The notes under the pieces: generated by a model | The model's input: only the letters and a program-made list of their open reading frames with translations | Told to the model about the DNA's origin: nothing | The model's database searches: none | Shown: positions 26,927 to 42,258 of the stretch, one piece after another | How the letters are laid out: every line of letters starts with the position of its first letter | How positions within the stretch are numbered: the first letter of the stretch is position 1 | DNA from: an uncultured Flavobacteriaceae bacterium | Lineage (GTDB): Bacteria > Bacteroidota > Bacteroidia > Flavobacteriales > Flavobacteriaceae | NCBI GenBank assembly: GCA_947500385.1 | Contig: CANMSA010000011.1 | Location: 62,001 to 126,000 of the forward strand | Direction: 5' to 3' | DNA: 64,000 nucleotides | Position numbers and translations under genes: made by a program

Positions 26927-28252
26927 ATGTCAAATACCACATTAAAATGGGCTGTATTACGTCTATGTCCGCTTCTAATACTTGTTAACATAGGTTGTGG
27001 GCAGTCGGTACAAGAAAGTGCAAAAACCGCTGTCAAAAATACTCATGCCACTACTCGGCCTCGTTGGGCAAGCGAGTTGATCGCGGCTTACAGGGCGTTA
27101 AACGAACAGCGCTCTCCCGAAACTGCCACCCTATTGGTAAGGGCATCGGACGATATGCCAAAAAAGAACTGGGAAAATTATTTTATGGCAGCAGCCATCT
27201 ATGCTCCCAACGGCCTGCATGACCAGGCATTCGAATCGCTTGAAAAAGCAATTGGAGCAGGGCTCAAAGATTACAACCTGTTAACTACATATCCAGAATT
27301 ATCGTCTCTAAAAGAGGATCAACGCTGGTCAAATCTTGTTTCAAAAGTAGATAGTATACAAAAAGGTGCTTTGGCAAAAATCGAAAATCCGGCCATACTT
27401 GCGGCGCTACAGAACATGTGGTCGCAAGACCAACGAGCATTATCACAGTATGAGGAAAAGATAAAAACCTTGGACAGCAGTGCAACATGGGAATCCTACC
27501 AAGCACTTTTTGAACCAGTAGAGAAACAATGGGATATCAATAGAAAAAAATTGGATAGCATCATTGCCATTCATGGCTGGCCAGGAAATCGTTTGGTGAG
27601 GGAAGACGGTGCCAAACTTGCTTGGGCCATATCACAGCACCATCCAGATGTATTTTATAAACAACGTTGCCTTGCCTTATTGAAGACAGCGATAGAACAA
27701 TCGGATGCCGACCCCAACCATTATGCAGAATTGAACGATCGCATTGCACGGGAGACCTGGCAAAAACAGACCTATGGTGCCAGTATGGGAGAAAATGCCC
27801 CATACCCTATCAAAAACCCTGAAGAAGTAAACAAAAAACGTCTAGAACTCGGCCTTTTTGAACCCATAGAAGTGTACGCCTTGTACCACGGCATTGACTA
27901 TCAGTTGCCGTCTGAGGAAGAAATTCGGTCTGCTTATCAACAAGCACAGGACGATTATAAAAAATTCGAAGCTTTTTTAGGGACTAACATGATCGATTCG
28001 GTCAACACTTATCTCGAGAGAGCAATTGCGGCCCATGGCGATATTAGCGATGAACAGCTTTATAATGCTTCCTTACGACTTGCCCAACTACCAAATAAGC
28101 GATCACAACGCATAACCTTTAAGATCTTAAAGGTGTTGATCTGGCGAAAATGGGACAAAAGGTTTCAAATGTTGACCCAAGAAGAACTTACGTCCATACA
28201 CCATCAAAAAGAATGGGAGGAAATTGAAGCATTGATCAAGATGAGCAGATAG
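26927..28252 (+). CDS. Lipoprotein with TPR-like repeats and a DUF6624-like domain
   Basis: 441 residues. The N terminus has a hydrophobic stretch and lipobox LVNIGC (Cys24). Residues about 45-140 look like TPR or end-of-group repeats (MAAAIYAPNGLHDQAFESLEKAIGAG). A DUF6624-like domain spans about 205-320, with HGWPGNRLVREDGAKLAWAI, QHHPDVFYKQRCLALLKTAI and LNDRIARETWQKQTYG. The domain is frequent in Bacteroidota and its function is unknown. Located between an AraC regulator and an alpha/beta hydrolase. Confidence 0.8.
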   Translation: MSNTTLKWAVLRLCPLLILVNIGCGQSVQESAKTAVKNTHATTRPRWASELIAAYRALNEQRSPETATLLVRASDDMPKKNWENYFMAAAIYAPNGLHDQAFESLEKAIGAGLKDYNLLTTYPELSSLKEDQRWSNLVSKVDSIQKGALAKIENPAILAALQNMWSQDQRALSQYEEKIKTLDSSATWESYQALFEPVEKQWDINRKKLDSIIAIHGWPGNRLVREDGAKLAWAISQHHPDVFYKQRCLALLKTAIEQSDADPNHYAELNDRIARETWQKQTYGASMGENAPYPIKNPEEVNKKRLELGLFEPIEVYALYHGIDYQLPSEEEIRSAYQQAQDDYKKFEAFLGTNMIDSVNTYLERAIAAHGDISDEQLYNASLRLAQLPNKRSQRITFKILKVLIWRKWDKRFQMLTQEELTSIHHQKEWEEIEALIKMSR

Positions 28253-28534
28253 CAACCAACTGATCCTACGGTAACATTGATCTTTGCCCTTAGTATCATG
28301 TTTAGGGCATTTAATGCGACCTGGCGACACCTACCCGGCAGTTGAATAAAGTCCCTAATGCTAATACAGCAGTAAGCTATCGGCCCGCGCATAACAATCA
28401 AAACAATACTTTTTTATGTGTGCATGCTGAAATTTTACAGGTACTTATCAACCCGCAGATTTAGTATCTTGGAGGCATCATCGACATTGAATAACGATGC
28501 TCATAGGTTACAGACAAAACGCCAACGTACTTTT

Positions 28535-29371
28535 ATGATAGAAATTGAAATCGCTACAAACTCCACCAATTCTATCGCCGCGACGCTATTTACCGCTGAA
28601 AAAGAACAGGCCGTATTGATTATTGCTTCCGCGACAGGGGTAAAGCAATCGTTTTATAAGAAATTTGCGGAATTCCTTGCCGCAAAGGGTGTCACCGTAA
28701 TCACATTTGACTACCAAGGCATAGGACGTTCGTTAAACCAGCGAATAGCCGATGTGGAAAATAACGCTGAGGAATGGGGAAGCATTGGCTTGGAAAACGT
28801 CATTGCCCATATGCTCAAATACCATCCCCGTTCCAAAAAATATATTCTAGGGCATAGTATCGGAGGACAATTAATTGGTTTTGCAAAATCGGCCATTGAA
28901 GTTGACAAAATCATTCTAGTCGCGGCACAATCGGGATATTGGAAATATTGGAAGGGCACCGGCCGCGTAAAAATGTGGTTCAATTGGTATGTGCTATTTC
29001 CCACCTTAGTATCCCTTTTTGGGTATATGCCGTCGAAAAAAATCAGTGGCATGGAAAATTTACCAAAAAACGTTGCAAAGCAATGGAACAACTGGGGTAA
29101 GGATCCCGAATACCTGTTTAGTGATATTCGCCAAGAAGCATCCAATTTTGACGCTATTAGTTCCCGAATGACGGCATTTAGCATCGCCGATGATGTCTAC
29201 GCGCCCAAAGCGGCGGTCAATTGGATGACCCAGAAGTACAGCAAAGCAACGGTCAAAGAGATTCACTTGATCCCAAGCGATTACAACAGCCCGAAAATTG
29301 GGCACTTTGGAATATTCCGAGAAAAGTTCCAACATAATTTATGGCAACTCCTATTAAAGGAAATTGATTGA
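28535..29371 (+). CDS. Serine aminopeptidase-like alpha/beta hydrolase
   Basis: 278 residues from the ATG at 28535, chosen because MIEIEIATNSTN begins the hydrolase fold; an open extension to 28418 is hydrophilic with no family resemblance. Key elements are ITFDYQGIGRS, the nucleophile elbow LGHSIGGQ (Ser near residue 110) and a late His in KIGHFGIF. The DYQGIGRS and GHSIGGQ pattern matches a group of uncharacterised alpha/beta-hydrolases (YdcJ/COG4757-like). Preceded by 282 bases of non-coding sequence with no clear promoter. Confidence 0.82.
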   Translation: MIEIEIATNSTNSIAATLFTAEKEQAVLIIASATGVKQSFYKKFAEFLAAKGVTVITFDYQGIGRSLNQRIADVENNAEEWGSIGLENVIAHMLKYHPRSKKYILGHSIGGQLIGFAKSAIEVDKIILVAAQSGYWKYWKGTGRVKMWFNWYVLFPTLVSLFGYMPSKKISGMENLPKNVAKQWNNWGKDPEYLFSDIRQEASNFDAISSRMTAFSIADDVYAPKAAVNWMTQKYSKATVKEIHLIPSDYNSPKIGHFGIFREKFQHNLWQLLLKEID

Positions 29372-29384
29372 AAACAATACAAAG

Positions 29385-29618
29385 TCATAAATCGCCAATC
29401 GGTCGAATAGTAGGAGCTACCTTTTTGGGTTCAAGATCTTTGTTGTGCCAAATTCTTGGATTTTGGCCATGAAGTTCCCATGGGTCTTCCAGGCGATACC
29501 TTACCAACCGCTTTGGACGATAAAGGAAGATGTAATGAATTGGTTTTTGAAAGGTGTTCCCTCCACTTTCAATGTTCCCAGTTCCACTAATACTGTATTT
29601 TAACCTAAAACCCCTAAA
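29385..29618 (-). pseudogene. Startless open frame, probable remnant of a gene's 3' end
   Basis: On the minus strand an open frame of 77 codons ends in TGA (29385-29387) and is bounded upstream by TAA (29619-29621). It has no ATG, GTG or TTG near its 5' end. Its composition looks like real protein (QKPIHYIFLYRPKRLVRY, EDPWELHGQNPRIWHNKD, PKKVAPTIRPIGDL): balanced, rich in Trp, Tyr and Pro, with ordinary codons. I do not recognise it. A decayed gene end left by rearrangement fits best; chance is possible at this length. Confidence 0.35.
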
Positions 29619-29649
29619 TTAGACGGCAGCAAGTAACCGAACGAAGCGA

Positions 29650-31038
29650 GTGGCCAATCAACTAACAACCTATTGGAAACTGCATAGGACCCCTATCCTA
29701 TTGGCACTGCTAAGCCTTGTTTTTTACCATACGTTTGCCTACAACTTGGTTCGCACCGATTTTGTAAGGCTTTTAGCCCTCTTTGTCGCCTTGTTCTTCC
29801 TTTGTTACAAGTTGATACAGTTCGAAAAATGGAATTTTAAATTTCTATTGGGGGCCGGTATCCTCTTTCGTCTTGTCTTTCTATTCGTTGAACCGAATCT
29901 TTCCCAGGATTTTTATCGCTTTATATGGGACGGGGAGCTCGTACATCATTGGCTCAATCCTTACTTAGAAGTACCCAACACCCTTATTGAACAAAAAAAT
30001 CTTGTTATCGCAAATGCCCAAACCCTCTATGATGGAATGGGATCTTTGAGTGCAAGGCACTTCAGTAATTACCCGCCGTTGAACCAGCTGATTTTTGCGG
30101 CAACCAGTTTTTTGGGGGCCGATAGCGTCTTAGGTTCGGTGATTGCAATGCGCGTTGTGATTATCCTGGCAGATGTAGGAGTGTTTTATTTTGGCCGCAA
30201 GCTACTACGGAACTTAAACCGATCACCACACTTGATATTTTGGTATTTTTTAAATCCGTTGGTCATTGTTGAACTCACCGGAAACCTTCATTTTGAAGGG
30301 GCGATGTTGTTCTTTTTTGTAAGCTCGCTTTACTTGATCTCGGTTAAAAAATGGAAAATGGGCGCCATCGTGTATGCACTTTCAATTTCAGTAAAATTGG
30401 TCCCATTGCTCTTCCTACCGTTGTTCATAAAACACTTCGGATGGAAAAAGAGCATAGGCTTCTATACCATAGTGGGTATTACAAGCCTCGCATTGTTGCT
30501 TCCTTTCTACTCCTCTGAATTTATAGACCACTATGCGCAAACCGTGGGGCTTTGGTTTTCAAATTTTGAATTCAATGCGGGTCTCTACAACGGAATCAAA
30601 AAACTTGCGGTACAATTCGATGCAAAGCCTTGGGAACTGATCAAAATCTACGGAAAAATAACTCCTTGGATTACCATCCTATCCGTATTGGCCCTTACTT
30701 TTTTCAGAAACAATCAAAAGCTACCTGTACTAATGGGCTCTATGTTATGGGCCCTTACCCTTTATTATTTTACTTCGGCAACCGTACATCCTTGGTACCT
30801 TATTTTTTTGGTGACCCTCTGTATTTTCACAGAATATCGCTTTGCCATTCTGTGGTCGGCGGCCGTAGTTCTGAGTTATTTCGCCTATTCCAAAATAGAT
30901 TTTAAAGAGAATCTATGGTTGCTTTCAATTGAGTATTTAGCGGTTTATGCCTTTTTAGCGTATGAAATTATCACACGACATGGCAAAAAAGTTTTATTTG
31001 GCAAAAAGGACCGTTTTAAGAGGGCCGATTCGAATTAA
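29650..31038 (+). CDS. Polytopic mannosyltransferase-like glycosyltransferase (GT87/DUF2029 type)
   Basis: 462 residues starting at GTG 29650; no ATG is available upstream in frame. About ten to twelve membrane segments are visible. The first extracytoplasmic loop contains LSQDFYRFIWDGELV, the acidic motif of polyprenyl-phosphate-sugar-dependent GT-C transferases. NPLVIVELTGNLHFEG and STATVHPWYL-type residues (SATVHPWYLIF) are also typical of this group. It would use the sugar-phospholipid made by a DPM1-like GT2, such as that at 16928-17623, from which it is separated by 12 kb here. Its weak start and the REP-like sequence immediately before it suggest that its 5' region has been altered. 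Confidence 0.83.
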   Translation: MANQLTTYWKLHRTPILLALLSLVFYHTFAYNLVRTDFVRLLALFVALFFLCYKLIQFEKWNFKFLLGAGILFRLVFLFVEPNLSQDFYRFIWDGELVHHWLNPYLEVPNTLIEQKNLVIANAQTLYDGMGSLSARHFSNYPPLNQLIFAATSFLGADSVLGSVIAMRVVIILADVGVFYFGRKLLRNLNRSPHLIFWYFLNPLVIVELTGNLHFEGAMLFFFVSSLYLISVKKWKMGAIVYALSISVKLVPLLFLPLFIKHFGWKKSIGFYTIVGITSLALLLPFYSSEFIDHYAQTVGLWFSNFEFNAGLYNGIKKLAVQFDAKPWELIKIYGKITPWITILSVLALTFFRNNQKLPVLMGSMLWALTLYYFTSATVHPWYLIFLVTLCIFTEYRFAILWSAAVVLSYFAYSKIDFKENLWLLSIEYLAVYAFLAYEIITRHGKKVLFGKKDRFKRADSN

Positions 31039-31042
31039 TTTG

Positions 31043-31050
31043 TACATTTG
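31043..31050 (+). promoter_or_regulatory. -7 type promoter element before the arginine/proline operon
   Basis: TACATTTG matches the Bacteroidota -7 consensus TAnnTTTG. It lies 8 bases before the ATG of the leader ORF at 31058, so transcripts would start almost at that ATG. No good TTTG was found 17-23 bases upstream, so the assignment rests on one element. Confidence 0.35.
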
Positions 31051-31057
31051 ACCCGTA

Positions 31058-31141
31058 ATGAACAGCGAAACACATTCTTATACTATCTACGGAGCAACCG
31101 CTCCCGTACGTTCATTGGTACCCGTTCGCCGTCGCCCGTAA
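31058..31141 (+). CDS. Candidate arginine/proline leader peptide (attenuator) of the arg-pro operon
   Basis: A 27-codon ORF with ATG at 31058 and TAA at 31139-31141. Residues 16-27 read PVRSLVPVRRRP: four Arg (positions 18, 24, 25, 26) and three Pro (16, 22, 27) in twelve residues, with three consecutive Arg codons (CGC CGT CGC) and one Pro codon right before the stop. The downstream operon makes exactly arginine and proline. Leader peptides rich in the end-product amino acid are the hallmark of ribosome-mediated attenuation. Alternative hairpins follow at 31140-31183. It lies between a terminal glycosyltransferase gene and the GNAT gene, in an otherwise empty 190-base gap. Translation is not proven. 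Confidence 0.5.
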   Translation: MNSETHSYTIYGATAPVRSLVPVRRRP

Positions 31142-31183
31142 GGGTATATTTTTATTTTGGAAATAGGTGAGTCCATTTCCCTT
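31140..31183 (+). promoter_or_regulatory. Alternative hairpins following the leader ORF
   Basis: Two pairings compete for the same bases. GGAAAT plus GG (31159-31164, 31166-31167) pairs with CC plus ATTTCC (31173-31180) around a TGAGT loop. Alternatively AAGGG (31140-31144) pairs with CCCTT (31179-31183). A ribosome paused on the Arg codons at 31127-31135 would cover AAGGG and favour the first hairpin. A GC hairpin, GGAGC-AACC-GCTCC (31091-31104), lies inside the leader ORF. No T-run follows, so a classical terminator is not evident; control could act on elongation or on translation of the GNAT gene. Confidence 0.35.
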
Positions 31184-31228
31184 CTCGACAAAACATTCAT
31201 TATTTTATAATCCTTAAAGCAAATTACA

Positions 31229-31861
31229 ATGGAAATTGTTATTGCTAACGAATCACATTTTAAGTACGCCCAAATTATCTGTGACACTATCGCCGATTCG
31301 GCCAAGGTGCGCGGTACGGGAATTGCCAAACGTACCCCGGAATACATTCTTAAAAAATTGGAAAATGGCAATGCCGTTATCGCGTTGGATGGCGATACGT
31401 TTGCGGGCTTCTGCTACATTGAAGTATGGGGACATGAAAAATACGTTGCCAATTCAGGGTTGATCGTACACCCTGACTACCGTGCAAAGGGGTTGGCAAA
31501 AAAAATCAAAAAGAAAATTTTTGACCTTTCAAAAGAGAAGTTTCCAAAGGCTAAAATATTTGGTATTACCACCGGGCTGGCCGTTATGAAAATCAATTAT
31601 GAATTGGGCTACAAACCCGTCACCTTTTCTGAACTGACCGATGACCCGCAATTTTGGAAAGGATGCCAAACCTGTAAAAACTTCGACATTTTAACCCGTA
31701 CAGAGCAAAAAATGTGTCTTTGTACCGGTATGCTACACGACCCGGCCGCCACAAACGGCCCCAAGGAAAAACAACAAAAAAAGATGAACGGTAAAGCGTT
31801 CAAACGATTAAAAAGTATCAAGGAAAGTATATTCCTAAAAAAGAAAACCAAGAACATATGA
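31229..31861 (+). CDS. GNAT N-acyltransferase heading the arg operon, candidate N-acylglutamate synthase
   Basis: 210 residues. The GNAT core has VANSGLIVHPDYRAKGLAKK, with the acyl-CoA pyrophosphate loop at about residues 83-91, and ITTGLAVMKINYELGYKP. After the core it carries a tail with a cysteine cluster (C146, C149, C163, C165: CQTC and CLC), then a Lys-rich end. No argA or argJ homologue is visible in the window, while all later ornithine/arginine steps are present, so this gene is the best candidate for the first step, acylating glutamate (acetyl or succinyl). From memory, a GNAT gene in this position has been proposed for that role in other Bacteroidota. Its stop overlaps the argG ATG by 4 bases (ATGA). 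Confidence 0.75.
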   Translation: MEIVIANESHFKYAQIICDTIADSAKVRGTGIAKRTPEYILKKLENGNAVIALDGDTFAGFCYIEVWGHEKYVANSGLIVHPDYRAKGLAKKIKKKIFDLSKEKFPKAKIFGITTGLAVMKINYELGYKPVTFSELTDDPQFWKGCQTCKNFDILTRTEQKMCLCTGMLHDPAATNGPKEKQQKKMNGKAFKRLKSIKESIFLKKKTKNI

Positions 31862-33036
31862 AACTAGTACTAGCCTATAGTGGCGGATTGGACACCAGTT
31901 ACTGCGCAAAATATCTCTCCAAAGAAAAGGGTTTTGAAGTGCACGCGGTAAGTATAAATACCGGTGGCTTTTCACAAGAAGAAATTACGGCCATAGAAGA
32001 AAAAGCATTGCAACTCGGAGCGGCGTCCTATACCTCGATCGATGCGGTACAGACCTTTTATGAAAAGGTAGTCAAATACCTCATTTTCGGAAACGTTTTA
32101 AAAAACAACACCTACCCCCTTTCGGTAAGTGCCGAGCGAATTGTACAGGCTATTGAAATTGTGAACCATGCCAAAAAAATCGGCGCCCAGTATATTGCCC
32201 ATGGCAGCACCGGTGCAGGTAATGATCAGGTGCGTTTTGATATGATCTTTCAGATTATCGCTCCAGAAATAGAGATTATTACGCCCATTAGGGATCTGCA
32301 ATTGGCCCGGGAGGAAGAAATCGCCTACTTACAACAAAACGGTGTAGACTATTCTTGGGAAAAAGCAAAATATTCAATTAACCGAGGTCTCTGGGGCACC
32401 TCGGTAGGTGGCGAGGAAACCCTCACTTCCGAACTCCCATTGCCCGATAGTGCCTATCCTAGCCAATTGCAAGAGAAAAAACCGGCCACGGTACAACTTA
32501 CTTTCGAAAAAGGAGAACTCATCGCCATCGACGGAGAACAAAATACCCCCGTTGCCAATATCGAAAAACTGAATGCCATGGCATCTAAATATGCCATTGG
32601 GCGCGACATTCACGTAGGCGATACGATTATTGGTATCAAAGGTCGGGTTGGTTTTGAGGCAGCTGCTTCCTTGATCATCATCAAAGCACATCACCTATTA
32701 GAAAAACACACCTTGACCAAATGGCAACAATATCAAAAAGGGCAGCAAGGAAATTTTTACGGGATGTTGCTGCACGAAGGCAACTACTTAGATGCCGTTA
32801 TGCGAAATATTGAAGCATTCTTAACAGATACCCAAAAAACCGTTTCCGGTGATGTCTTCGTGGGACTCTACCCTTTTCAATTCAGGTTAAACGGGGTGTC
32901 CTCTAAACATGATTTAATGAACGCCTCTTTTGGAAGTTATGGCGAGATGAACAAGGCATGGTCGGCCGAAGACGCCAAAGGTTTTATCAAAATACTATCG
33001 AACTCAGGTAAAATATACAACCACGTAAATCAATAA
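31858..33036 (+). CDS. argG: Argininosuccinate synthase
   Basis: 392 residues, full length. It starts with the ATP pyrophosphatase P-loop LAYSGGLDTSYCAKYL (3-18). AHGSTGAGNDQVRFDM (citrulline/aspartate-binding region) is present near 116-131. It condenses citrulline with aspartate using ATP. In the operon it is overlapped at its ATG by the GNAT gene and followed by argC after one base. The C-terminal part is of the longer Bacteroidota type with YGMLLHEGNYLDAVMR. Confidence 0.96.
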   Translation: MKLVLAYSGGLDTSYCAKYLSKEKGFEVHAVSINTGGFSQEEITAIEEKALQLGAASYTSIDAVQTFYEKVVKYLIFGNVLKNNTYPLSVSAERIVQAIEIVNHAKKIGAQYIAHGSTGAGNDQVRFDMIFQIIAPEIEIITPIRDLQLAREEEIAYLQQNGVDYSWEKAKYSINRGLWGTSVGGEETLTSELPLPDSAYPSQLQEKKPATVQLTFEKGELIAIDGEQNTPVANIEKLNAMASKYAIGRDIHVGDTIIGIKGRVGFEAAASLIIIKAHHLLEKHTLTKWQQYQKGQQGNFYGMLLHEGNYLDAVMRNIEAFLTDTQKTVSGDVFVGLYPFQFRLNGVSSKHDLMNASFGSYGEMNKAWSAEDAKGFIKILSNSGKIYNHVNQ

Positions 33037-33037
33037 T

Positions 33038-34012
33038 ATGATCAGAGCAGGTATTATTGGAGGTTCGGGCTATACGGGTGGTGAGCTCATCCGAGTTTTA
33101 TTGAACCATCCGAAAGTGGAAATCGATTTTGTCTACAGTACAACACGGGCCGGAAAAGCATTGACCTCGGCACATCCCGATTTATTGGGAGCGACCACCA
33201 TGCAATTTACAGCTGATATAAATGCGGCCGTAGACTTGGTTTTCCTTTGTTTGGGCCACGGGAACTCTACACAGTTTTTGCGGGACCACTCCTTTTCAAA
33301 CGCTACAAAGATCATTGACCTTAGCAATGACTTTCGCCTACACAAAGATGCCATTTTTGACACCAAAACATTCGTTTATGGGCTACCCGAGCTGAACAAA
33401 ACCGCTATTCAGCAAGCAAACCATGTTGCCAATCCCGGTTGCTTTGCAACCGCTATACAGCTAGCCTTGCTCCCTTTGGCCAAAGCGGGCCTTCTTGAAA
33501 ATGAAGTACATATCAATGCGGTCACTGGAAGCACAGGTGCCGGGGTACGCCCTGCGGAAACCACGCATTTTAGCTGGCGGAACAACAATGTGAGCTGGTA
33601 CAAGCCCTTTACCCATCAGCATCTCGGAGAAATTAACGAAAGTCTACTTTCATACCAAACAGGGATTGGCGAATTGTATTTCCTCCCGGTTCGCGGAAAT
33701 TTTACCCGGGGTATTTTTGCAACTGCTTACACCCATTTTGAGGGCAGTGAAGAAACAGCTAAGGATTTGTATCGGGATTTTTACGCCGATAGCCTTTTCA
33801 CACACCTTAGCGAAAGTCCCATTCACCTAAAGCAAGTGGTCAATACCAATCAATGCCATCTACACATACATACATACCAAAACAAGTTGTTGATCACCTC
33901 GGCCATTGACAACCTTTTGAAAGGAGCTTCGGGACAAGCCGTTCATAATATGAATTTGATGTTCGATTTTGAAGAAAAAGAAGGACTCCAGTTAAAAGCA
34001 GGGGTGTTTTAG
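33038..34012 (+). CDS. argC: N-acetyl(acyl)-gamma-glutamyl-phosphate reductase
   Basis: 324 residues, usual length. The NADPH motif is AGIIGGSGYTGGELIRVL (4-21), the catalytic cysteine lies in VANPGCFATAIQL, and VTGSTGAGVRP follows. It reduces the acylglutamyl phosphate made by ArgB to the semialdehyde. In a pathway of the Bacteroidota type the acyl group may be succinyl or acetyl. One base separates it from argG; proC follows after 47 bases. Confidence 0.95.
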   Translation: MIRAGIIGGSGYTGGELIRVLLNHPKVEIDFVYSTTRAGKALTSAHPDLLGATTMQFTADINAAVDLVFLCLGHGNSTQFLRDHSFSNATKIIDLSNDFRLHKDAIFDTKTFVYGLPELNKTAIQQANHVANPGCFATAIQLALLPLAKAGLLENEVHINAVTGSTGAGVRPAETTHFSWRNNNVSWYKPFTHQHLGEINESLLSYQTGIGELYFLPVRGNFTRGIFATAYTHFEGSEETAKDLYRDFYADSLFTHLSESPIHLKQVVNTNQCHLHIHTYQNKLLITSAIDNLLKGASGQAVHNMNLMFDFEEKEGLQLKAGVF

Positions 34013-34059
34013 AAATAAAAAATAGTCCACTGGTTCGGTGGGAACGCAAAAAAGCAATC

Positions 34060-34854
34060 ATGAAAATAGCAATCATAGGAACAGGAAACTTGGGGCTCTC
34101 CATTGCAAAAGGCATTTTACATAGTAATGGGGCTACCCAAATGTATATGACCAAGCGGAATATCGAAAGTATTCGGAGTTTTGAAAAATATGGCAATGTA
34201 GTAGTTACCTCCGACAACCGGGAAGCCGTACAACAATCGGATATTCTAATATTTGCCGTGCAGCCCGGCCATTTAGCCCAAATCCTAGAGGATATCAAAG
34301 ACCTGTTGACCGAAAATCATGTGATTATTTCAACCATAACAGGTTTTAGCATCGCAAAAATCGAAGGAATCATCGGTGTGGAAAACTACATCGTTCGAAG
34401 CATGCCCAACACCGCAATTTCCGTTGGAAAATCAATGACCTGTATTTGTGCCAATACCAAAGGAGCGCAACGCATTGAGTTGACCAAGGCCATCTTTAAT
34501 CAAATGGGGCACTCCTTGGAGGTGCCCGAAGAACAAATGCAAGCGGCAACCGTAATTTGTGCCAGCGGAATCGCTTTTTGGATGCGATTGATCAGGGCCA
34601 CCACCCAGGGAGCCATACAACTCGGCTTTGATGCCAAGGAGGCCCAGGAACTGGCCATGCATACCTGTGATGGGGCCGCCAACCTTTTGATCAAGTCGGG
34701 CAATCATCCTGAAGAAGAAATAGATCGGGTAACCACCCCCATGGGCTGCACCATTCAAGGACTCAACGAAATGGAGCACCAAGGGTTGAGCTCGTCGTTG
34801 ATCCGAGGAATTGTGGCATCCTTTGATAAAATAACGGAGTTTAAAAACAAATAA
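34060..34854 (+). CDS. proC: Pyrroline-5-carboxylate reductase
   Basis: 264 residues. N-terminal NAD(P)H motif IAIIGTGNLGLSIAKGIL (3-20), VRSMPNTAISVGKSM (near 127) and the C-terminal SGNHPEEEIDRVTTPMGCT segment with the conserved TxxxGxT region. It makes proline from pyrroline-5-carboxylate, the last step of proline synthesis. Its position between argC and argD shows that arginine and proline synthesis are encoded as one unit here, with proA and proB following. Confidence 0.95.
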   Translation: MKIAIIGTGNLGLSIAKGILHSNGATQMYMTKRNIESIRSFEKYGNVVVTSDNREAVQQSDILIFAVQPGHLAQILEDIKDLLTENHVIISTITGFSIAKIEGIIGVENYIVRSMPNTAISVGKSMTCICANTKGAQRIELTKAIFNQMGHSLEVPEEQMQAATVICASGIAFWMRLIRATTQGAIQLGFDAKEAQELAMHTCDGAANLLIKSGNHPEEEIDRVTTPMGCTIQGLNEMEHQGLSSSLIRGIVASFDKITEFKNK

Positions 34855-34866
34855 AATGGTACCCAT

Positions 34867-35994
34867 ATGAAACTATTCGACGTATACCCCTTATATGATG
34901 TTACTCCGGTCTCGGCAAACGGCCTTGTGGTTACCGATGAAAAAGGACAGGAATATCTTGATTTGTATGGAGGCCATGCCGTAATATCCATTGGGCATTC
35001 CCATCCGCATTACACGCGACGTTTAAAGGAACAACTAAATCAAATCGGTTTCTATAGTAATGCGGTTCAAAACCCTTTACAAGAGCAATTGGCCAATAAA
35101 TTAGGCATGCTCTCCGGCTGCGAAGACTACAATTTATTTTTATGCAATTCAGGTGCGGAAGCAAACGAGAATGCCCTAAAGGTCGCTTCCTTCAAAACAC
35201 AAAAATCGAAGGTGATCGCCTTTAAAAATGGATTTCATGGTCGCACCTCCGCCGCCGTAGCCGCGACCGACAATCAGAAAATAAATGCCCCTATTAACAA
35301 ACAACAAAAAGTAAGTTTCTTGCCATTGAATAACTTGGCGGCCTTTCAAAAAGAAATTCAAAAGGGCGATGTTTGTGCGGTTATTTTGGAAGCAATTCAA
35401 GGAGTCGGTGGTTTAGATGAGCCCACCACCGATTTTTATAGAAGCGTGGCCGTACTCTGTAAAGCCTGGAAGGTCATTTTGATTGCCGATGAGGTACAAT
35501 CAGGATTTGGGCGTAGTGGAACTTTTTTTGCCTTTCAGCAGCACGGTATCCTACCCGATATTATCAGCATCGCAAAAGGTATGGGAAACGGTTTTCCCGT
35601 GGGCGGTATCTTAATACACAAACATATTAAAGCCAGCCATGGTATGTTGGGCACTACATTTGGGGGGAACCACCTGGCCTGCGCGGCCACCTTGGCCGTG
35701 TTGGAAGTGTTGGAGCAAGAAAACCTAGTCGAAAACGCGGCGAATCTAGGAGCGTATTTCATTGAAAAGGCAACGGACATTCCGCAGGTGAAAAAAATCA
35801 AAGGACGCGGATTGATGCTGGGTCTGGAATTTGATTTTGAAGTCGCCGAGTTGCGCAAAAAATTGATTTATGAGCACCATATTTTCACCGGCGGTGCTAA
35901 AAACAAAAAAGTACTTCGCATCTTACCGGCACTGACTATTCAGAAAACACAACTTGATTTATTTTTTAACACCTTAAAAACGGCACTACGGTGA
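34867..35994 (+). CDS. argD: Acetyl(acyl)ornithine aminotransferase
   Basis: 375 residues, class III PLP aminotransferase. It has YLDLYGGHAVISIGHSHP near the N terminus, SGAEANENALK, LIADEVQSGFGRSGTFFA with the PLP-ring Asp, and IAKGMGNGFPVGG with the PLP-binding Lys. It transaminates acylglutamate semialdehyde to acylornithine. The stop overlaps the GTG start of proA (GTGA). Confidence 0.95.
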   Translation: MKLFDVYPLYDVTPVSANGLVVTDEKGQEYLDLYGGHAVISIGHSHPHYTRRLKEQLNQIGFYSNAVQNPLQEQLANKLGMLSGCEDYNLFLCNSGAEANENALKVASFKTQKSKVIAFKNGFHGRTSAAVAATDNQKINAPINKQQKVSFLPLNNLAAFQKEIQKGDVCAVILEAIQGVGGLDEPTTDFYRSVAVLCKAWKVILIADEVQSGFGRSGTFFAFQQHGILPDIISIAKGMGNGFPVGGILIHKHIKASHGMLGTTFGGNHLACAATLAVLEVLEQENLVENAANLGAYFIEKATDIPQVKKIKGRGLMLGLEFDFEVAELRKKLIYEHHIFTGGAKNKKVLRILPALTIQKTQLDLFFNTLKTALR

Positions 35995-37190
35995 GCAAGC
36001 AACTACATATTTCCCGGCGAAACCAGGTTTTATCCTTAATGGCTCAATATATTATCAAGGAGGCACCAAGTATATTGGCTGCCAACAAAAAGGATATGGA
36101 TGCCTATCAGGGAGAGGATATTGCAATGCGCGATCGCTTAAAAGTCGATAAAAGCAAAATCATGGGCATGGTCGAATCCTTGCGACAGTTGGCCACCGAA
36201 CCCGACCCCCTGGGAGTGGAACGATTTGGTTTCACCCATGAAAACGGGATGCAGGTCAGTAATAAGACAGCTCCTTTTGGGACCATATTGATTATCTACG
36301 AATCAAGGCCCGATGTCACCATCGAAGCGGCCGGTATTGCCTTTAAATCGGGCAACAAAATACTTTTAAAAGGGGGAAAGGAATCATTGCATAGTAATTT
36401 GGTATTGGTAGGATTGTGGCATAGGGCCTTGGCGCAAGCCGATTGTTCATTAGATTGGGTACAGTATTTAGAATTTAACCGTACACAAACACAAACTTTC
36501 CTCCAGAAACCCTCACAAACCGTAGACCTCATTATCCCCAGAGGCGGGGAACGACTTATCGATTTCGTAAAAAAACATGCTACCTGCCCTGTTATCGTAA
36601 GTGGGCGCGGAAACAATTTTATGTATATCCATGGAGAAGCAGATTTGGAAATGGCCCTTGATATCATTATGAATGCCAAAACCACGAAAATCTCTGCCTG
36701 TAATGCCCTGGACAAAGTTTTAATAGCCGCCGATTTACCAAGAAAGCAAGCGTTCTTAGCTCGTTTGGTTCAAGAATTGACCAAAAAAGAGATTACGATA
36801 TTGGTAGATGATCAACTGCTCGATTTAGAAGGGACCCTACCCATGGCAAATGAGGAAGTATGGTTCGAAGAATTTTTGGATAACAAAATTGTACTGGGCC
36901 AAGTATCCGAACTACCCGAAGCGATCAACAAAATAAATACATATGGGGGAGGCCACTCCGCAGCGATTATTACGGCAAACAGCGAAACAGCGGAAACCTT
37001 TATGAATGCGATAGATGCCGCAGCCGTTTACCATAATGCCTCGACCCGTTTTACCGACGGAGGGCAGTTCGGGCTTGGTGGCGAGCTTGCAATCGGCACC
37101 GACAAATTACATCAAAGAGGTCCCATTGGACTTCAGCATCTGGTCACGAACAAGTGGTATGTGAAAGGAACCGGACAAGTACGCAACTAG
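35991..37190 (+). CDS. proA: Glutamate-5-semialdehyde dehydrogenase (gamma-glutamyl phosphate reductase)
   Basis: 399 residues, starting at GTG 35991, which overlaps the argD stop by 4 bases. Signatures are YESRPDVTIEAAGIAFKSGN, IPRGGERLIDFVK, and ISACNALDKVLI with the catalytic cysteine; VYHNASTRFTDGGQFGLG follows near the C terminus. It works with ProB to make glutamate semialdehyde, which cyclises to the ProC substrate. It is placed before proB, the reverse of the proBA order in many bacteria. Confidence 0.95.
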   Translation: MSKQLHISRRNQVLSLMAQYIIKEAPSILAANKKDMDAYQGEDIAMRDRLKVDKSKIMGMVESLRQLATEPDPLGVERFGFTHENGMQVSNKTAPFGTILIIYESRPDVTIEAAGIAFKSGNKILLKGGKESLHSNLVLVGLWHRALAQADCSLDWVQYLEFNRTQTQTFLQKPSQTVDLIIPRGGERLIDFVKKHATCPVIVSGRGNNFMYIHGEADLEMALDIIMNAKTTKISACNALDKVLIAADLPRKQAFLARLVQELTKKEITILVDDQLLDLEGTLPMANEEVWFEEFLDNKIVLGQVSELPEAINKINTYGGGHSAAIITANSETAETFMNAIDAAAVYHNASTRFTDGGQFGLGGELAIGTDKLHQRGPIGLQHLVTNKWYVKGTGQVRN

Positions 37191-37217
37191 TAGCAACTCC
37201 CTTTTCAAAAAAATAGC

Positions 37218-37985
37218 ATGGGTAAAAAAAGAATACTTCTTAAAATAGGGACCAACACACTGACCAAAGAGACGGAGCATATTTCGAGAGGAAAAATCGA
37301 GGATATTGGTCGGCAAATTGCCAAACTGAAGGACCACTACGAGTTTATCATTGTAAGTTCGGGAGCCATTGCCGCCGCAAAACAATTCGTAAAACTGGAA
37401 CACAACGGGGAAGAAATTAATGTTAAACAAGCATTGGCCGCTATCGGCCAACCTCATTTAATGCGAATTTTTCAAGAAAATTTCAGGGAATTGGGACTCT
37501 TCACCTCGCAGTGTCTTTTGTCTTATTCCGACTTTGAACAACTCGATTCCAAAAAAAACATTCGAAATACGATTGACGTGCTCGTAGCCAATAATTGCAT
37601 TCCGATTATCAACGAGAACGATACCGTCTCCACCGAAGAAATACAGTTCGGGGACAACGATAAATTGGCAGCGCTCGCCGCTTCACTACTACAAGCAGAT
37701 CTGTTGTTGATAGCGACCAATACCGATGGTATTTATACCAAGGCGTCAATAGATCAGGAAAAACCGGTGACAATTACCTCCCTATCGGATATCCACATGT
37801 TAAAACAGGAGATAAGCTCCGAGAAATCGTCCCATGGAACCGGGGGAATGAAATCAAAAATAGAGGCAGCGACCATAGCGCAAAAAGCCTTGATCGAGAC
37901 TTGGATCGTTAACGGATTGCCTGACAATTTTATCATAGACGCGTTAAACGGAAAAGCGAACTGCACCAAAATAACCATCAAATGA
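37218..37985 (+). CDS. proB: Glutamate 5-kinase, short form without PUA domain
   Basis: 255 residues. It has the amino-acid-kinase start RILLKIGTNTLTKE, VSSGAIAAAKQF, INENDTVSTEEIQFGDNDKLAALAA and the late GTGGMKSKIEAA. E. coli ProB is about 367 residues with a C-terminal PUA domain; that domain is absent here, and the protein ends with the kinase fold. In E. coli ProB the PUA domain affects proline feedback properties, so regulation may differ (inference). The stop overlaps the argF' ATG by 4 bases (ATGA). Confidence 0.94.
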   Translation: MGKKRILLKIGTNTLTKETEHISRGKIEDIGRQIAKLKDHYEFIIVSSGAIAAAKQFVKLEHNGEEINVKQALAAIGQPHLMRIFQENFRELGLFTSQCLLSYSDFEQLDSKKNIRNTIDVLVANNCIPIINENDTVSTEEIQFGDNDKLAALAASLLQADLLLIATNTDGIYTKASIDQEKPVTITSLSDIHMLKQEISSEKSSHGTGGMKSKIEAATIAQKALIETWIVNGLPDNFIIDALNGKANCTKITIK

Positions 37986-38917
37986 ATTACCTCTCCATTC
38001 AAGATATAGACCATTTGCCTACCTGGGTCGATGAAGCAAGAAAACTCAAATCGGCGCCGAGAGCGCATCGGCCGTTGGGAGCAGGAAAGACCCTCTGCCT
38101 TTTGTTCTTCAATAACAGCTTGCGCACCCGTCTGAGCACACAAAAAGCAGCTATGAACCTAGGGATGGAAGTGATGGTAATGAATTTTGGAACAGAAGGT
38201 TGGGCGCTTGAATACGGCGATGGCACCATCATGGATCAGGGAAAATCGGAACATATCAAAGAAGCAGCACAGGTGGTGTCCCAATTTTGTGATATCGTCG
38301 CCATCCGTGCATTCGCCACCCTAACCGATAAGCAAAAAGACGAAGCCGAATTGGTACTTAATGGCTTTGTTAAATACGCGGGCATTCCGGTCCTAAATAT
38401 GGAAAGTTCTGTTGGCCATCCCTTACAGGCATTGGCGGATGCAATTACCATTGCAGAGCAAAAAAACAAGGAAAGGCCCAAGGTCGTACTCTCATGGGCA
38501 CCACACCCAAAAGCGCTGCCACATGCAGTTGCCAATTCATTTGTGCAAATGATGCAGCTTCAGGAGGCCGATTTCGTAATCACTCATCCCAAGGGGTATG
38601 AGTTGAATCCTGAAATCACCAAAAATGTTCCCATTGAGTATGACCAAGAAAAGGCCCTCAAAGGCGCCGATTTCGTCTATGTAAAAAACTGGAGTAGCTA
38701 TTCCGATTATGGAGCGATCTTACATCAAGATTCCAGTTGGATGGTTACCAAGAAAAAACTTGCGACTGCGCAATTAATGCATTGCCTACCGGTACGAAGA
38801 AATGTGGTACTATCCGACGACGCCCTCGACAGCGATCGGTCGTTGGTGATAACACAGGCAAATAACAGAACCTATGCAGCACAATTGGTATTAAAAAAAA
38901 TAATTGAACACTTATAA
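37982..38917 (+). CDS. argF': N-acyl-L-ornithine carbamoyltransferase (ArgF' type)
   Basis: 311 residues. The carbamoyl-phosphate site reads NSLRTRLSTQ (about 44-53) instead of the STRT of ordinary ornithine carbamoyltransferases, and HCLPVRRNVVLSD (near 266) matches the acylornithine carbamoyltransferase branch. Bacteroides ArgF' uses N-succinylornithine and Xanthomonas uses N-acetylornithine; the two differ at one loop residue. The loop here reads QGKSEHIKEA, which I cannot assign safely to either. The product is an N-acylcitrulline, later deacylated by the M20 enzyme downstream. Confidence 0.9.
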   Translation: MNYLSIQDIDHLPTWVDEARKLKSAPRAHRPLGAGKTLCLLFFNNSLRTRLSTQKAAMNLGMEVMVMNFGTEGWALEYGDGTIMDQGKSEHIKEAAQVVSQFCDIVAIRAFATLTDKQKDEAELVLNGFVKYAGIPVLNMESSVGHPLQALADAITIAEQKNKERPKVVLSWAPHPKALPHAVANSFVQMMQLQEADFVITHPKGYELNPEITKNVPIEYDQEKALKGADFVYVKNWSSYSDYGAILHQDSSWMVTKKKLATAQLMHCLPVRRNVVLSDDALDSDRSLVITQANNRTYAAQLVLKKIIEHL

Positions 38918-38918
38918 T

Positions 38919-39695
38919 ATGACGACGCTAGCGATTGTAAAAATTGGAGGCAACGTACTAGAAAACGAGGAGGAACTCTCAAAGTTCCTCACCTACTTTT
39001 CAGCGCTAAAAGGGGCCAAAGTATTGGTACATGGCGGCGGCAAACTTGCTACCCAAATGGCGACCAGCTTGGGTATTGCATCAAAAATGGTCGATGGGCG
39101 GCGAATTACCGACGCTGCTTCCCTAGAGGTTATTACCATGGTATATGCAGGACTGACCAATAAAAATGTCGTTGCAAAACTACAGGCAAGAGGTTGCAAT
39201 GCCATCGGCCTAACAGGAGCCGACGGGAACACTATTCAGGCGCATAAAAGGCCGGTCAAAGACATCGATTATGGGTTTGTCGGGGATGTTGACGGTATCG
39301 ACCCCACTATCATTTCAGCACTATTGAACGCTGGTCTCTGTCCGGTTTTTTGTGCTATGACACATGATGGAAATGGACAATTATTGAATACCAACGCAGA
39401 TACGATCGCTGCTGAGATAGCCATCGGTATGAGCCGTCTTTTTGAAACCTGTTTATATTATTGTTTTGAAAAAAAAGGGGTTTTGATGGATATTACGGAC
39501 GAAGATTCGGTAGTAAAATACATTGACACGAACAAGTACCGACAACTACTGGAGCAGGGTGTTATTGCAGACGGAATGTTGCCAAAACTAACTAATTGTT
39601 TTCATGCCCTGAACCAGAAGGTGCACCAAGTCTGTATTGGAGATATTTCAATGATCAACAAAGAATCGGATCTATTCACAACTATAACTTTATGA
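38919..39695 (+). CDS. argB: Acetyl(acyl)glutamate kinase
   Basis: 258 residues from the ATG at 38919. This start follows the argF' stop by one base and gives the family N terminus (TLAIVKIGGNVLENEEEL); an in-frame ATG at 38904 would overlap argF'. It has LVHGGGKLATQMA, DGRRITD, LTGADGN and the late DGMLPKL, all diagnostic of ArgB. It phosphorylates N-acylglutamate. The stop overlaps the next start (ATGA). Confidence 0.95.
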   Translation: MTTLAIVKIGGNVLENEEELSKFLTYFSALKGAKVLVHGGGKLATQMATSLGIASKMVDGRRITDAASLEVITMVYAGLTNKNVVAKLQARGCNAIGLTGADGNTIQAHKRPVKDIDYGFVGDVDGIDPTIISALLNAGLCPVFCAMTHDGNGQLLNTNADTIAAEIAIGMSRLFETCLYYCFEKKGVLMDITDEDSVVKYIDTNKYRQLLEQGVIADGMLPKLTNCFHALNQKVHQVCIGDISMINKESDLFTTITL

Positions 39696-40789
39696 TGATG
39701 GAGCAATCACTGCTTACTGAAAAAGCACTAAACCTATTAAAGCAACTAATAGCCATACGGTCTTTTTCTGAGGAAGAGGATGAAACAGCCGCCGCGATTC
39801 AAAATTGGTTCACGGCCTTTGATATTCCGTACGAACGGATCAACAATAATGTCTTTGCAAAGAACAAATGTTGGGATGAGCAAAAACCGACACTCCTCCT
39901 AAACTCGCACCACGATACGGTAAAGCCTAATAAAGCATATACCCGGGACCCTTTTCACCCGCATATAGAGGATGGGAAATTATACGGCTTGGGCAGTAAT
40001 GATGCGGGTGGGGCATTGGTGTCTTTGATTGCTACGTTCACCCATTTTTACAATTCCGAGAACCTGAATCACAACATCCTAATGGTGGCCTCCGCAGAGG
40101 AGGAGAATGCTGGAAAAAACAGTCTTAGGGGCCTTTTGCCAGATCTCCCAAAAATTGATGTGGCCATTGTTGGCGAACCTACCTTAATGCAACTGGCCAT
40201 TGCCGAAAAAGGCCTGGTCGTTTTTGACGCAACGGTCAAAGGAACACCTTCACATGCCGCACACCCGAATACAAACAACGCCATTTACAACACCATATCG
40301 GTCTTGGAATGGTTCAAAAATTATAGGTTTGAAAAAGAATCCGAGGCCCTAGGCGCCGTAAAAATGACCGTGACTCAAATAAATGCGGGAAGCCAACATA
40401 ATGTGGTGCCTGCACAAGTTGATTTGGTGGTTGACGTACGCGTAAATGACCAGTACAGCAATCAAGAGATTGCCGACCTTCTAAAAAACGAAGCACCCTG
40501 TGAGTTGAAAGAACGCGGTCTTAAACTAAATTCTTCTGCAATAGCCAAAGACCATGCTTTGGTAAAATCAGGTATTGCGCTGGGGCGAGAGACCTATGGT
40601 TCTCCAACCCTTTCGGACCAAGCGGCTTTAACATGTCAATCCTTAAAACTGGGGCCGGGGGACAGTACCCGTTCCCACTCGGCCGATGAATTTATTTACG
40701 TACGCGAAGTAGAAGAAGGAATCGATTTGTATATTAAATTATTAAAAGGATTTTTACATAAGACTAAGAAAGAAGATATAAATTCATGA
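39692..40789 (+). CDS. argE: M20 family deacylase, N-acetyl(acyl)ornithine/citrulline deacetylase
   Basis: 365 residues from the first of three ATGs at 39692/39695/39698; the first overlaps the argB stop. It carries the metal-binding NSHHDTVKPN (His and Asp), GLGSNDAGGAL, SAEEENAGKNS with the catalytic and metal-binding Glu pair, and a dimerisation domain with GTPSHAAHPNTNNA. It removes the acyl group at the ornithine/citrulline stage, which with ArgF' means acylcitrulline to citrulline. DapE-type activity is a less likely alternative given the context. Confidence 0.9.
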   Translation: MMMEQSLLTEKALNLLKQLIAIRSFSEEEDETAAAIQNWFTAFDIPYERINNNVFAKNKCWDEQKPTLLLNSHHDTVKPNKAYTRDPFHPHIEDGKLYGLGSNDAGGALVSLIATFTHFYNSENLNHNILMVASAEEENAGKNSLRGLLPDLPKIDVAIVGEPTLMQLAIAEKGLVVFDATVKGTPSHAAHPNTNNAIYNTISVLEWFKNYRFEKESEALGAVKMTVTQINAGSQHNVVPAQVDLVVDVRVNDQYSNQEIADLLKNEAPCELKERGLKLNSSAIAKDHALVKSGIALGRETYGSPTLSDQAALTCQSLKLGPGDSTRSHSADEFIYVREVEEGIDLYIKLLKGFLHKTKKEDINS

Positions 40790-40849
40790 GTTTTGAACGG
40801 CTCTTCGAATATTTTACGTCTTACATCTAACAAATTTAAATTAAGGGGG

Positions 40850-40867
40850 TTCCCGCTTTCACGGGAA
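40850..40867. repeat. REP-like palindrome TTCCCG-N6-CGGGAA before argH
   Basis: A perfect 6+6 inverted repeat with CTTTCA loop in the 98-base gap between argE and argH. The sequence around it is close to a widespread intergenic palindrome whose minus-strand translation gives SRESGNP. It is the only gap in the operon holding such an element; it could form an mRNA hairpin 20 bases before the argH start. Confidence 0.5.
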
Positions 40868-40887
40868 AGTCCATAAATATCATTTTT

Positions 40888-42165
40888 ATGAAACTCTGGG
40901 ACAAAGGTTTTAGTACAGATCAAAAAATAGACCGTTTTACCGTGGGCGACGATCGCGCATTGGACCTCTTTTTAGCCAAGTATGATGTCATCGCCTCTTC
41001 GGCCCATGCGAAAATGTTGGGTAAAATTGGTTTACTTACCCCACAGGAAACCACTGACCTGGTAAACGAACTAGCTAAAATCGGAAAGACCATCGAAGCC
41101 GGAACGTTTACGATAGAAGATACTTTTGAGGACATGCATTCGAAAATAGAATTTCTTCTAACGGAAAAACTGGGCGATACCGGGAAGAAAATTCACACCG
41201 CCCGATCTCGAAACGACCAAGTGTTGGTGGCAATGCACCTCTACCTCAAAGACGAACTCACCGAAATTAAGGCACAGACCAAAACGTTGTTCAATCTCTT
41301 AATGGACTTAGCAGAACAGCATAAAGACATATTGCTCCCGGGCTATACCCACTTGCAAATTGCCATGCCCTCTTCCTTCGGACTTTGGTTTTCTGCCTAT
41401 GCGGAAAGCTTGATCGATGACCTATACTTTATCGAGGCAGCATATAAGATTGCCGACCAAAATCCGTTGGGAAGCGCCGCCGGCTACGGTAGTTCATTTC
41501 ATATCGACCGAAGTTTTACCACCAAGGAAATGCGATTCACCACCTTAAAGTACAATGTGGTCGCCGCTCAAATGGGACGTGGCAAAGTAGAAAAAGCCGC
41601 GGCTTACGGGATGGCGAATATTGGGGCCACTCTTTCTAAAATGGCCATGGATATCTGCCTCTATATGAGTCAAAACTTTGATTTTATTTCTTTCCCGGAC
41701 GAGCTTACCACAGGTAGTAGTATTATGCCACACAAGAAAAATCCCGATGTATTTGAATTGGTGCGAGGAAAATGCAACAAATTGCAGGCCGTTCCCAACC
41801 AACTCACTTTGGTCATCAATAATCTGCCGAGCGGGTATCACAGAGATCTTCAATTGGTCAAAGAAATTATTATACCGGCCATACAGGATGTTAAGGCGTG
41901 CTTGGAAATTTTGACCTTTAGCCTCAGGGAAATAAAGGTAAACAATGCAATTTTGGAAGATCCAAAATACGACTACCTTTTTAGTGTAGATACGTTGAAT
42001 GAATTGGTTCAGAAGGGCATGCCCTTTAGAGATGCCTACAAACAAATGGGGCAGGAAATTGAAGCGGGTACCTTTACCCCCAAAAAAGATATCGCACATA
42101 CCCATGAAGGCAGTATCGGCAATCTTTGCCTGGCAGGGATTCGAGAAAAAATGGAAAAAAGCTAA
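40888..42165 (+). CDS. argH: Argininosuccinate lyase
   Basis: 425 residues. It starts MKLWDKGFSTDQKIDRFTVG, contains IHTARSRNDQVL and TGSSIMPHKKNPDVFELVRG, the fumarase/lyase superfamily signature, and the catalytic Ser loop is intact. It splits argininosuccinate to arginine and fumarate. It is the last gene of the block and the only one without coupling to its neighbour (98-base gap with a palindrome). No clear terminator follows. Confidence 0.96.
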   Translation: MKLWDKGFSTDQKIDRFTVGDDRALDLFLAKYDVIASSAHAKMLGKIGLLTPQETTDLVNELAKIGKTIEAGTFTIEDTFEDMHSKIEFLLTEKLGDTGKKIHTARSRNDQVLVAMHLYLKDELTEIKAQTKTLFNLLMDLAEQHKDILLPGYTHLQIAMPSSFGLWFSAYAESLIDDLYFIEAAYKIADQNPLGSAAGYGSSFHIDRSFTTKEMRFTTLKYNVVAAQMGRGKVEKAAAYGMANIGATLSKMAMDICLYMSQNFDFISFPDELTTGSSIMPHKKNPDVFELVRGKCNKLQAVPNQLTLVINNLPSGYHRDLQLVKEIIIPAIQDVKACLEILTFSLREIKVNNAILEDPKYDYLFSVDTLNELVQKGMPFRDAYKQMGQEIEAGTFTPKKDIAHTHEGSIGNLCLAGIREKMEKS

Positions 42166-42258
42166 TTTCACGGTTTACAGGGAAATAGGAAAACAAGAAA
42201 CGATGGACTTTTGCATAGAGAAGATTCATTTTTTATTTTTACCTAATGCCCTGAAAAG

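Follow-up and report, generated by a model that had tools for sequence, protein, structure and literature searches.

How is arginine biosynthesis controlled in bacteria in which ArgR is not to be found? Descriptions of bacterial arginine biosynthesis usually place the pathway under ArgR. The ArgR C-terminal domain (PF02863) was found in none of the 395 genomes of the order that were searched (0/395), whereas by the same search it turned up in 8 of 14 genomes taken as controls, among them Bacteroides; the N-terminal domain (PF01316) is absent from the genome to which the DNA under study belongs, the one genome searched for it, and an ArgR regulon, which calls for an ArgR encoded in the genome, does not describe the locus. 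In the window, by which we mean the whole stretch of 64,000 nucleotides that was analysed, the original prediction had placed before a combined arginine and proline operon an attenuator whose leader peptide ends in Arg and Pro codons, ribosome stalling being thought to switch between two mutually exclusive hairpins. Our comparison of sequences points instead to a cis-acting arginine-sensing leader before the operon whose output does not run via an intrinsic terminator, a reading to which we assign a probability of about 0.75. In these bacteria, where no ArgR was found, such a leader could be what controls arginine synthesis.

The gap in question lies between the stop of the preceding gene at 31038 (462 codons, no Pfam family) and the start of the first operon gene at 31229. 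Downstream of the leader ORF the gene order is GNAT-argG-C-proC-argD-proA-B-argF-B-E-H, and arginine and proline genes are thus both present, just as had been claimed. The products of argC, proC, proA, proB, argB and argH score above a model cut-off and those of argD and argF below theirs; argE encodes an M20 peptidase-family protein that was named from its position in the operon. With argG, argC, argB and argH above cut-off, and with the same gene set in relatives, the operon is one that makes arginine. The GNAT gene adjoins argG in all 33 loci compared in family f1, which is Flavobacteriaceae as follows from the named loci. It matches no NCBIfam model above cut-off, only the general GNAT models of Pfam, and may be the missing N-acetylglutamate synthase. 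Among the matches listed for family f16, GNAT mostly sits inside longer open frames, some 570-650 codons in length, which look like fusions with a further gene.

Table 1. Features of the arginine leader and the operon behind it, in window coordinates
Feature	Position	Strand	Remarks
Predicted promoter -7 box TACATTTG (TAnnTTTG type)	31043..31050	+	flavobacterial consensus from PMC9723704
Leader peptide ORF MNSETHSYTIYGATAPVRSLVPVRRRP	31058..31141	+	ATG start, 27 codons, ends …PVRRRP-stop, CGC CGT CGC CCG TAA
SL0, GGAGC-AACC-GCTCC, within the ORF 5' of the Arg codons	31091..31104	+	sequence variable, pairing kept
Presumed sensor: Arg codons 24-26 of the leader, CGC CGT CGC	31127..31135	+	sequence and conservation in relatives
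SL1, GCCC-GTAA-GGGT, spanning the stop codon and the final Arg/Pro codons	31134..31145	+	codons -2 CGC and -1 CCG invariant (81/81)
SL2, GGAAAT-A-GG-TGAGT-CC-ATTTCC, presumed output element	31159..31180	+	nearly invariant top AGGTG[A/T]GTCC
GNAT-family acetyltransferase, first operon gene	31229..31861	+	Pfam PF00583 and PF13508 above cut-off
argG, argininosuccinate synthase	31858..33036	+	TIGR00032 above cut-off
Rest of operon: argC, proC, argD, proA, proB, N-acetylornithine carbamoyltransferase-like gene (argF), argB, argE, argH	33038..42165	+	model matches

The predicted ORF with its Arg/Pro end is present exactly as described. The claim that the gap has no other ORF does not quite hold, for a TTG-started ORF of 40 amino acids (31048-31170) runs there in another frame. 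At least four Arg and three Pro among the last 12 residues occur in 2 of the 556 ATG ORFs of 15-60 amino acids in the window, the leader included, and this composition alone would hardly be more than weak evidence for a leader. Relatives were collected through the GNAT protein; the best 80 of at least 346 confirmed matches, a sample of the closest that includes Maribacter, Arenibacter, Zobellia, Flagellimonas and Cellulophaga, make 81 loci with the window. The leader ORF is kept in all of them (81/81) at a length of 22-28 codons, and the Arg/Pro codon run, whose conservation in relatives the original prediction had proposed as its own check, ends in Arg-Pro in 81/81. Codon -1 is CCG (Pro) and codon -2 is CGC (Arg) in every locus, an invariance indicating that at these two codons it is the nucleotide sequence that is maintained. 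Arg stands at codon -3 in 78/81 loci and at codon -4 likewise in 78/81, written CGT or CGC, and the two codons differ at their first, second and third positions in 0.036, 0.061 and 0.478 of pairwise comparisons; since the variation falls mainly on the third position, what is conserved in the Arg run is the amino acid. A TAnnTT[TA][GA] box, called with the flavobacterial -7 consensus of PMC9723704, ends 6-9 nt 5' of the leader ATG in 81/81 loci, so that a short ORF with a codon run for the product amino acid lies between predicted promoter and operon; transcription would start a few bases 3' of this box and leave the leader mRNA nearly leaderless. Judged from these alignments, the conservation of the leader is clearly not chance, and an arginine-codon leader peptide appears well supported.

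Three conserved hairpins, SL0, SL1 and SL2, were recognised in the leader region. The arm regions of SL0 pair better in native than in swapped combination (-7.09 versus -5.32 kcal/mol, p=0.0005, 63 non-redundant loci), and when synonymous codons are shuffled as the null, SL0 has a mean z of -1.39, with p<=0.05 reached singly in 31/81 loci only. SL1 takes the forms GCAC-GTCA-GTGC, GCAC-GTTT-GTGC or GCCC-TTT-GGGC in divergent loci, where one stem pair is changed from C-G to A-U in 2/52 and the loop varies. SL2, lying 13 nt beyond SL1, is the GGAAAT..ATTTCC hairpin of the original prediction, which exists and covaries: changes on both sides are seen at five of six outer pairs and one of two inner pairs in an alignment of 52 loci, and TAGGTG[AGT]GTCCA is present in 81/81 loci. 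A model of SL1 plus SL2, termed R1, was built from 18 loci and aligned to 52 loci hand-chosen from 114; 7 of its 13 pairs change on both sides against 3.0 in shuffles, none of five covariation measures was reached by any shuffle (0/500) and sliding of the partner destroys the signal, in an alignment that was fitted to the structure and is biased towards SL1+SL2 pairing. RNAalifold, run on the 81 closer loci without a structure fit, found SL1 and SL2 with one both-side pair and little covariation energy, and the whole leader, folded as one sequence by itself, shows no exceptional stability (z -0.87). Rfam, T-box and riboswitch families included, gave no match at gathering score in 28000-43000 and none up to E=1 in 30950-31300. 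A reading of SL2 as a DNA operator was rejected, both arms changing together in many ways, and a GTG ORF starting in SL2 was dropped as by eye it is not open in all loci. The genome has a second copy of the SL2 core, by eye in an apparent antisense coding stretch; it has no matching arm and was taken as chance.

The distribution of the element was followed with R1 in the 395 genomes of the order, using filters that lose weak matches. Matches at E<=0.01 were obtained in 41/395 genomes, 33 of them Flavobacteriaceae and eight others weak or unrelated, and the best match in each of the 33 lies directly 5' of GNAT-argG. GNAT itself was found in 195/395 genomes. By hand count the element occurs in 33 of 35 GNAT-bearing Flavobacteriaceae genomes outside genus g2 (Flavobacterium, by our guess); of the remaining two, G039 reaches 20.1 bits, while G196 lacks the element. 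For g2 the same filtered search gave 0/34 GNAT-bearing genomes. Forty loci without an R1 match, 20 from Flavobacteriaceae (18 of these g2) and 20 from other families, were rescanned with filters off, and a clear match was obtained in L148 (the G039 locus) only, the next best (13.3 bits) overlapping the GNAT start and the 18 g2 loci reaching at best 10.5 bits, no clear match. A scan of the same 40 loci for Arg-rich ORF ends returned seven whose Arg count is reached by <=3.5% of simple shuffles, 1.4 being expected: L132 (g2), L151 and L152 (f15), L153 (f2), L154 and L155 (f7) and L163 (f5). Those in f2, f7 and f15 are matched by <=2% of shuffles each, and the Arg codons in the leader ends of other families are partly AGA, AGG or CGA. 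L163, which had escaped inspection by eye, is the weakest (1.5% of shuffles as good, without correction for the 40 loci scanned); the other 10 f5 loci have no Arg-rich end, and neither f16 locus (0/2) passes 5%. In the arginine operon of g2 (L129-L146), 17 of the 18 loci scanned have no Arg-run leader and show a T-rich upstream region instead. For the R1 matches outside Flavobacteriaceae (8 of the 41 genomes), the proteins of the window operon were not matched in the 2.4-4.6 kb around them; the best of these matches, in G009, was rejected as a terminator-like hairpin (CCCCGCCCGTAAGGGCGGGG), and a second weak match in G256 (L128) is likewise without the operon genes. Groups without the leader are also without ArgR, indicating that loss of ArgR alone does not predict the leader and that other means of control must exist.

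An Arg/Pro-rich leader with a hairpin after it suggests a textbook attenuator in which two exclusive hairpins, one of them an intrinsic terminator, are switched by stalling at Arg or Pro codons, and the genome's own his leader has just this appearance, as does its ilvD leader by eye; for the arginine operon, however, we consider this improbable. The AAGGG/CCCTT hairpin that was to compete with SL2 can be drawn in the window sequence but is not conserved, with CCCTT at that place in 8/81 loci and a 5-bp partner of whatever sequence, G-U pairs counted, in 9/81, and was rejected. No alternative helix involving SL2 was found in its stead: a fixed-register covariation scan of 66 non-redundant loci gave no high-pairing long-range helix besides SL2, and in 16 native-versus-swapped duplex tests of leader parts against SL2 parts the lowest p values, 0.011 and 0.049 among 16, were not counted positive, the arms of SL2 serving as positive control (p=0.0005). 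Invariant pairings are invisible to covariation, and one such pairing could join the SL2 loop to the Arg codons or to the 5' arm of SL1 at about -7 kcal/mol, native and swapped alike, both sides being nearly invariant and so beyond its reach. A U tract stands behind SL2 in 0/81 loci and, in the 33 Flavobacteriaceae loci (window copy included), in 0/33 by a strict rule and 1/33 by a loose one; a terminator scan of window positions 31040-31240 reported none. The intrinsic terminator reading of SL2 was rejected for want of a U tract, whereas the his leader of the same genome does have a terminator before its first gene. Of the predicted attenuator there remain the conserved Arg-codon leader and the RNA hairpins after it, without the exclusive pair and the intrinsic terminator. 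The ORF and its codon run are those of a leader peptide while terminator and antiterminator are missing, for which reason we regard the arginine leader as probably a form of leader-peptide regulation and not a classical attenuator; that neither a terminator nor a competing helix was found counts against our favoured reading at its last control step.

As to the signal, operon content and leader were examined in 36 loci with a script that chose the most Arg-rich leader end over all frames, which favours Arg; the picks L220, L242 and L243 look like noise and were left out of the count of inner Pro codons. Arg is kept in leaders of operons without pro genes in the stretch (…IIFCISILRRP-stop in G236, …TRITFLRRPLGA-stop in G030, …SLRRFERRLRA-stop in G111, …LRLRRSRRRLRA-stop in G116 and …YRRRPVRV-stop in G001), and in L213 and L214 (…RRTSVRV-stop and …RRTFVRV-stop) Pro is lost along with a changed SL1 stem and Arg stays. 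The last Pro codon seems to be fixed by SL1 and looks structural, because the threonine leader described below, with a like stop-codon hairpin, often has a Pro codon in that hairpin even though its operon makes threonine. The predicted sensing of arginine and proline together, by a leader before an operon that makes both, has inner Pro codons in its favour and yet appears doubtful to us. Pro accounts for 25% of the last 12 leader residues, with 2.04 per leader when the final one is excluded, whereas the operon's proteins together with that of the preceding gene contain 2.9%. Inner Pro codons (those located in SL1 being assigned by eye) have a mean of 1.4 among the 25 operons that carry pro genes and of 0.375 among the eight that do not, a difference of nominal p=0.006 that ancestry confounds, as five of the eight come from other families and only three are from Flavobacteriaceae (p=0.04); inner Pro is missing from five of the 25 leaders whose operons carry pro genes. 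We take arginine to be the likely signal. It might be sensed as a free metabolite, as with TnaC, SpeFL and the fungal arginine attenuator peptide, short peptides controlling amino-acid-related genes whose nascent chain senses a free metabolite. By analogy, an Arg-rich nascent peptide with Phe, Pro and a terminal Pro would arrest the ribosome on binding arginine in free form or some metabolite related to it; TnaC ends in Arg-Pro-stop, Phe at -7/-8 and Pro at -6 are partly conserved over the 81 loci, and F-P-R-R recurs in the leaders of several divergent loci. We think this unlikely, for the last Pro and the position of the stop change in divergent loci (…RRRRFPRRTSVRV-stop), Arg residues vary in number and place, the f7 leaders lack F-P and the threonine leader is built to the same plan from Thr/Ile codons; unlike in those peptides, the features of the arginine leader point to codon sensing. 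Least credible to us is an RNA element binding a protein or ligand, with the ORF a mere by-product of RNA conservation: the SL2 top is nearly invariant and CGYCGYCGCCC is mostly conserved as DNA in the 81 loci, but ATG and frame are kept in 81/81 despite the differences in length, and Arg is retained with CGA/AGG codons in L132 and with mainly AGA/AGG in L151 and L152.

For the arginine-sensing leader that we favour, proceeding from the conserved ORF, its Arg codons, the hairpins and an ArgR that was not found, we infer translation, stalling, the direction of control and a stop of transcription as output, in the following manner. The near-leaderless mRNA would open with the peptide ORF, 27 codons long and with Arg at most of its final positions. 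When charged tRNA-Arg is plentiful, the ribosome would reach the stop and leave, SL1 would fold over the ORF end and SL2 beyond it, and operon expression would be reduced. When charged tRNA-Arg is scarce, the ribosome would stall on the Arg codons and cover the SL1 5' arm, so that SL1 stays unfolded and the operon is expressed. The output would be a premature stop of transcription via a factor that reads SL2, either a protein or Rho acting in the stretch behind it; that stretch is G-poor (5.8% G and 19% C over 81 loci) and might suit Rho. Direct masking of the GNAT start codon by SL2 is unlikely because SL2 ends 48 nt upstream of it in the window.

Leader-peptide attenuators of the trp, his, thr, leu and ilv type are well known from amino-acid operons. 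The arginine leader resembles them in its short ORF behind the promoter, its codon run for the product amino acid and its hairpins at and after the ORF end; unlike them it concerns arginine, has no U-tract terminator and no conserved antiterminator pairing that we could find, and carries a second hairpin with a nearly invariant loop. Arginine limitation is sensed through ribosome pausing on leader-peptide Arg codons in rbfL of Staphylococcus aureus, as PMC13009471 describes; rbfL has two Arg codons and acts by blocking the site at which ribosomes bind the message of a biofilm regulator, whereas the arginine leader precedes a biosynthetic operon and its SL2 ends well 5' of the first start codon. 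Closer in phylogeny, leader-peptide attenuation has been proposed before amino-acid biosynthesis operons of Flavobacterium psychrophilum, with structured elements at hisG and pheA (text part of PMC9723704); these too are leaders before amino-acid operons in related bacteria, and that part describes no element for an arginine operon. The main-text literature that we searched listed no leader peptide for arginine ahead of arginine operons of the Bacteroidota.

What might read SL2 was also considered from the side of the ribosome. The 16S rRNA tail was located in seven of ten genomes searched, as GGAACACCUCC in five and GGAAUACCUCC in two genomes of genus g4; the 3' tail reads GGAACACCTCC in 5/7 matched genomes and GGAATACCTCC in both g4 genomes, where the SL2 loop is changed as well. 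With the GGAACACCUCC tail, window-type SL2 loops reach -10.0 or -12.3 kcal/mol (equalled by 0.022 and 0.01 of shuffles) and class-2 loops -12.0 or -14.3 kcal/mol (0.054 and 0.018), while the g4 loops with their own GGAAUACCUCC tail reach -4.0 and -7.6 kcal/mol (0.81 and 0.195). The g4 loops thus pair poorly with their own tail, and pairing with the 16S tail is not kept in g4, though among the genomes read g4 is alone in differing at loop and tail together. Contact between the 16S tail and the SL2 loop would be a lead only. Shine-Dalgarno-dependent control in Flavobacteriales is suggested in PMC9976891 to be limited to rpsU.

Other leaders of the same genome offer a comparison. Its his leader (C28, L175) encodes MRTINVHHHFYHCAQAR, with HHHFYH, and is followed by a classical U-tract terminator according to the scan; a segment CTCAAGCG can pair with CGTTTGAG of this terminator, by eye a classical antiterminator. 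Before ilvD (C15, L178) a leader MKTIALIVILSLVVP is followed by what by eye is a long hairpin with a T run, a hairpin that the terminator scan, covering loops of 3-8 only, did not report. The genome also has a Thr/Ile-rich threonine leader (C17, L176) with an SL1-like stop-codon hairpin, in which copy no terminator was found. A Thr/Ile-rich end with a stop-codon hairpin, mostly CCCC-TTT-GGGG, was recovered in 26 of 30 loci (L181-L210) by a script that takes the most Thr/Ile-rich frame with no start codon required and misses L200, L203, L206 and L210.

The arginine and threonine leaders thus appear to share the SL1 design. We tentatively propose, as a possibility and not an expectation, that flavobacteria have a second class of attenuator without terminator and antiterminator, composed of regulatory codons, an SL1 melted by the stalled ribosome and, at a fixed distance, an SL2 with an invariant loop to which a trans-acting factor would bind so as to halt RNA polymerase or let it go on. 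A protein, a Rho complex or even the 16S rRNA tail could play this part, the last being a tail partly complementary to the loop AGGUG[A/U]GUCC. The leader would be a candidate controller of the arginine pathway for many genomes of the order, all of them without a detected ArgR C-terminal domain, and SL2 is a covarying, sequence-specific hairpin. If general, the pairing of a stop-codon hairpin with a reader hairpin would amount to attenuation that scans for U-tract terminators miss. Further 3' of the threonine leader, a CCGTCCGTT-like stretch recurs by eye.
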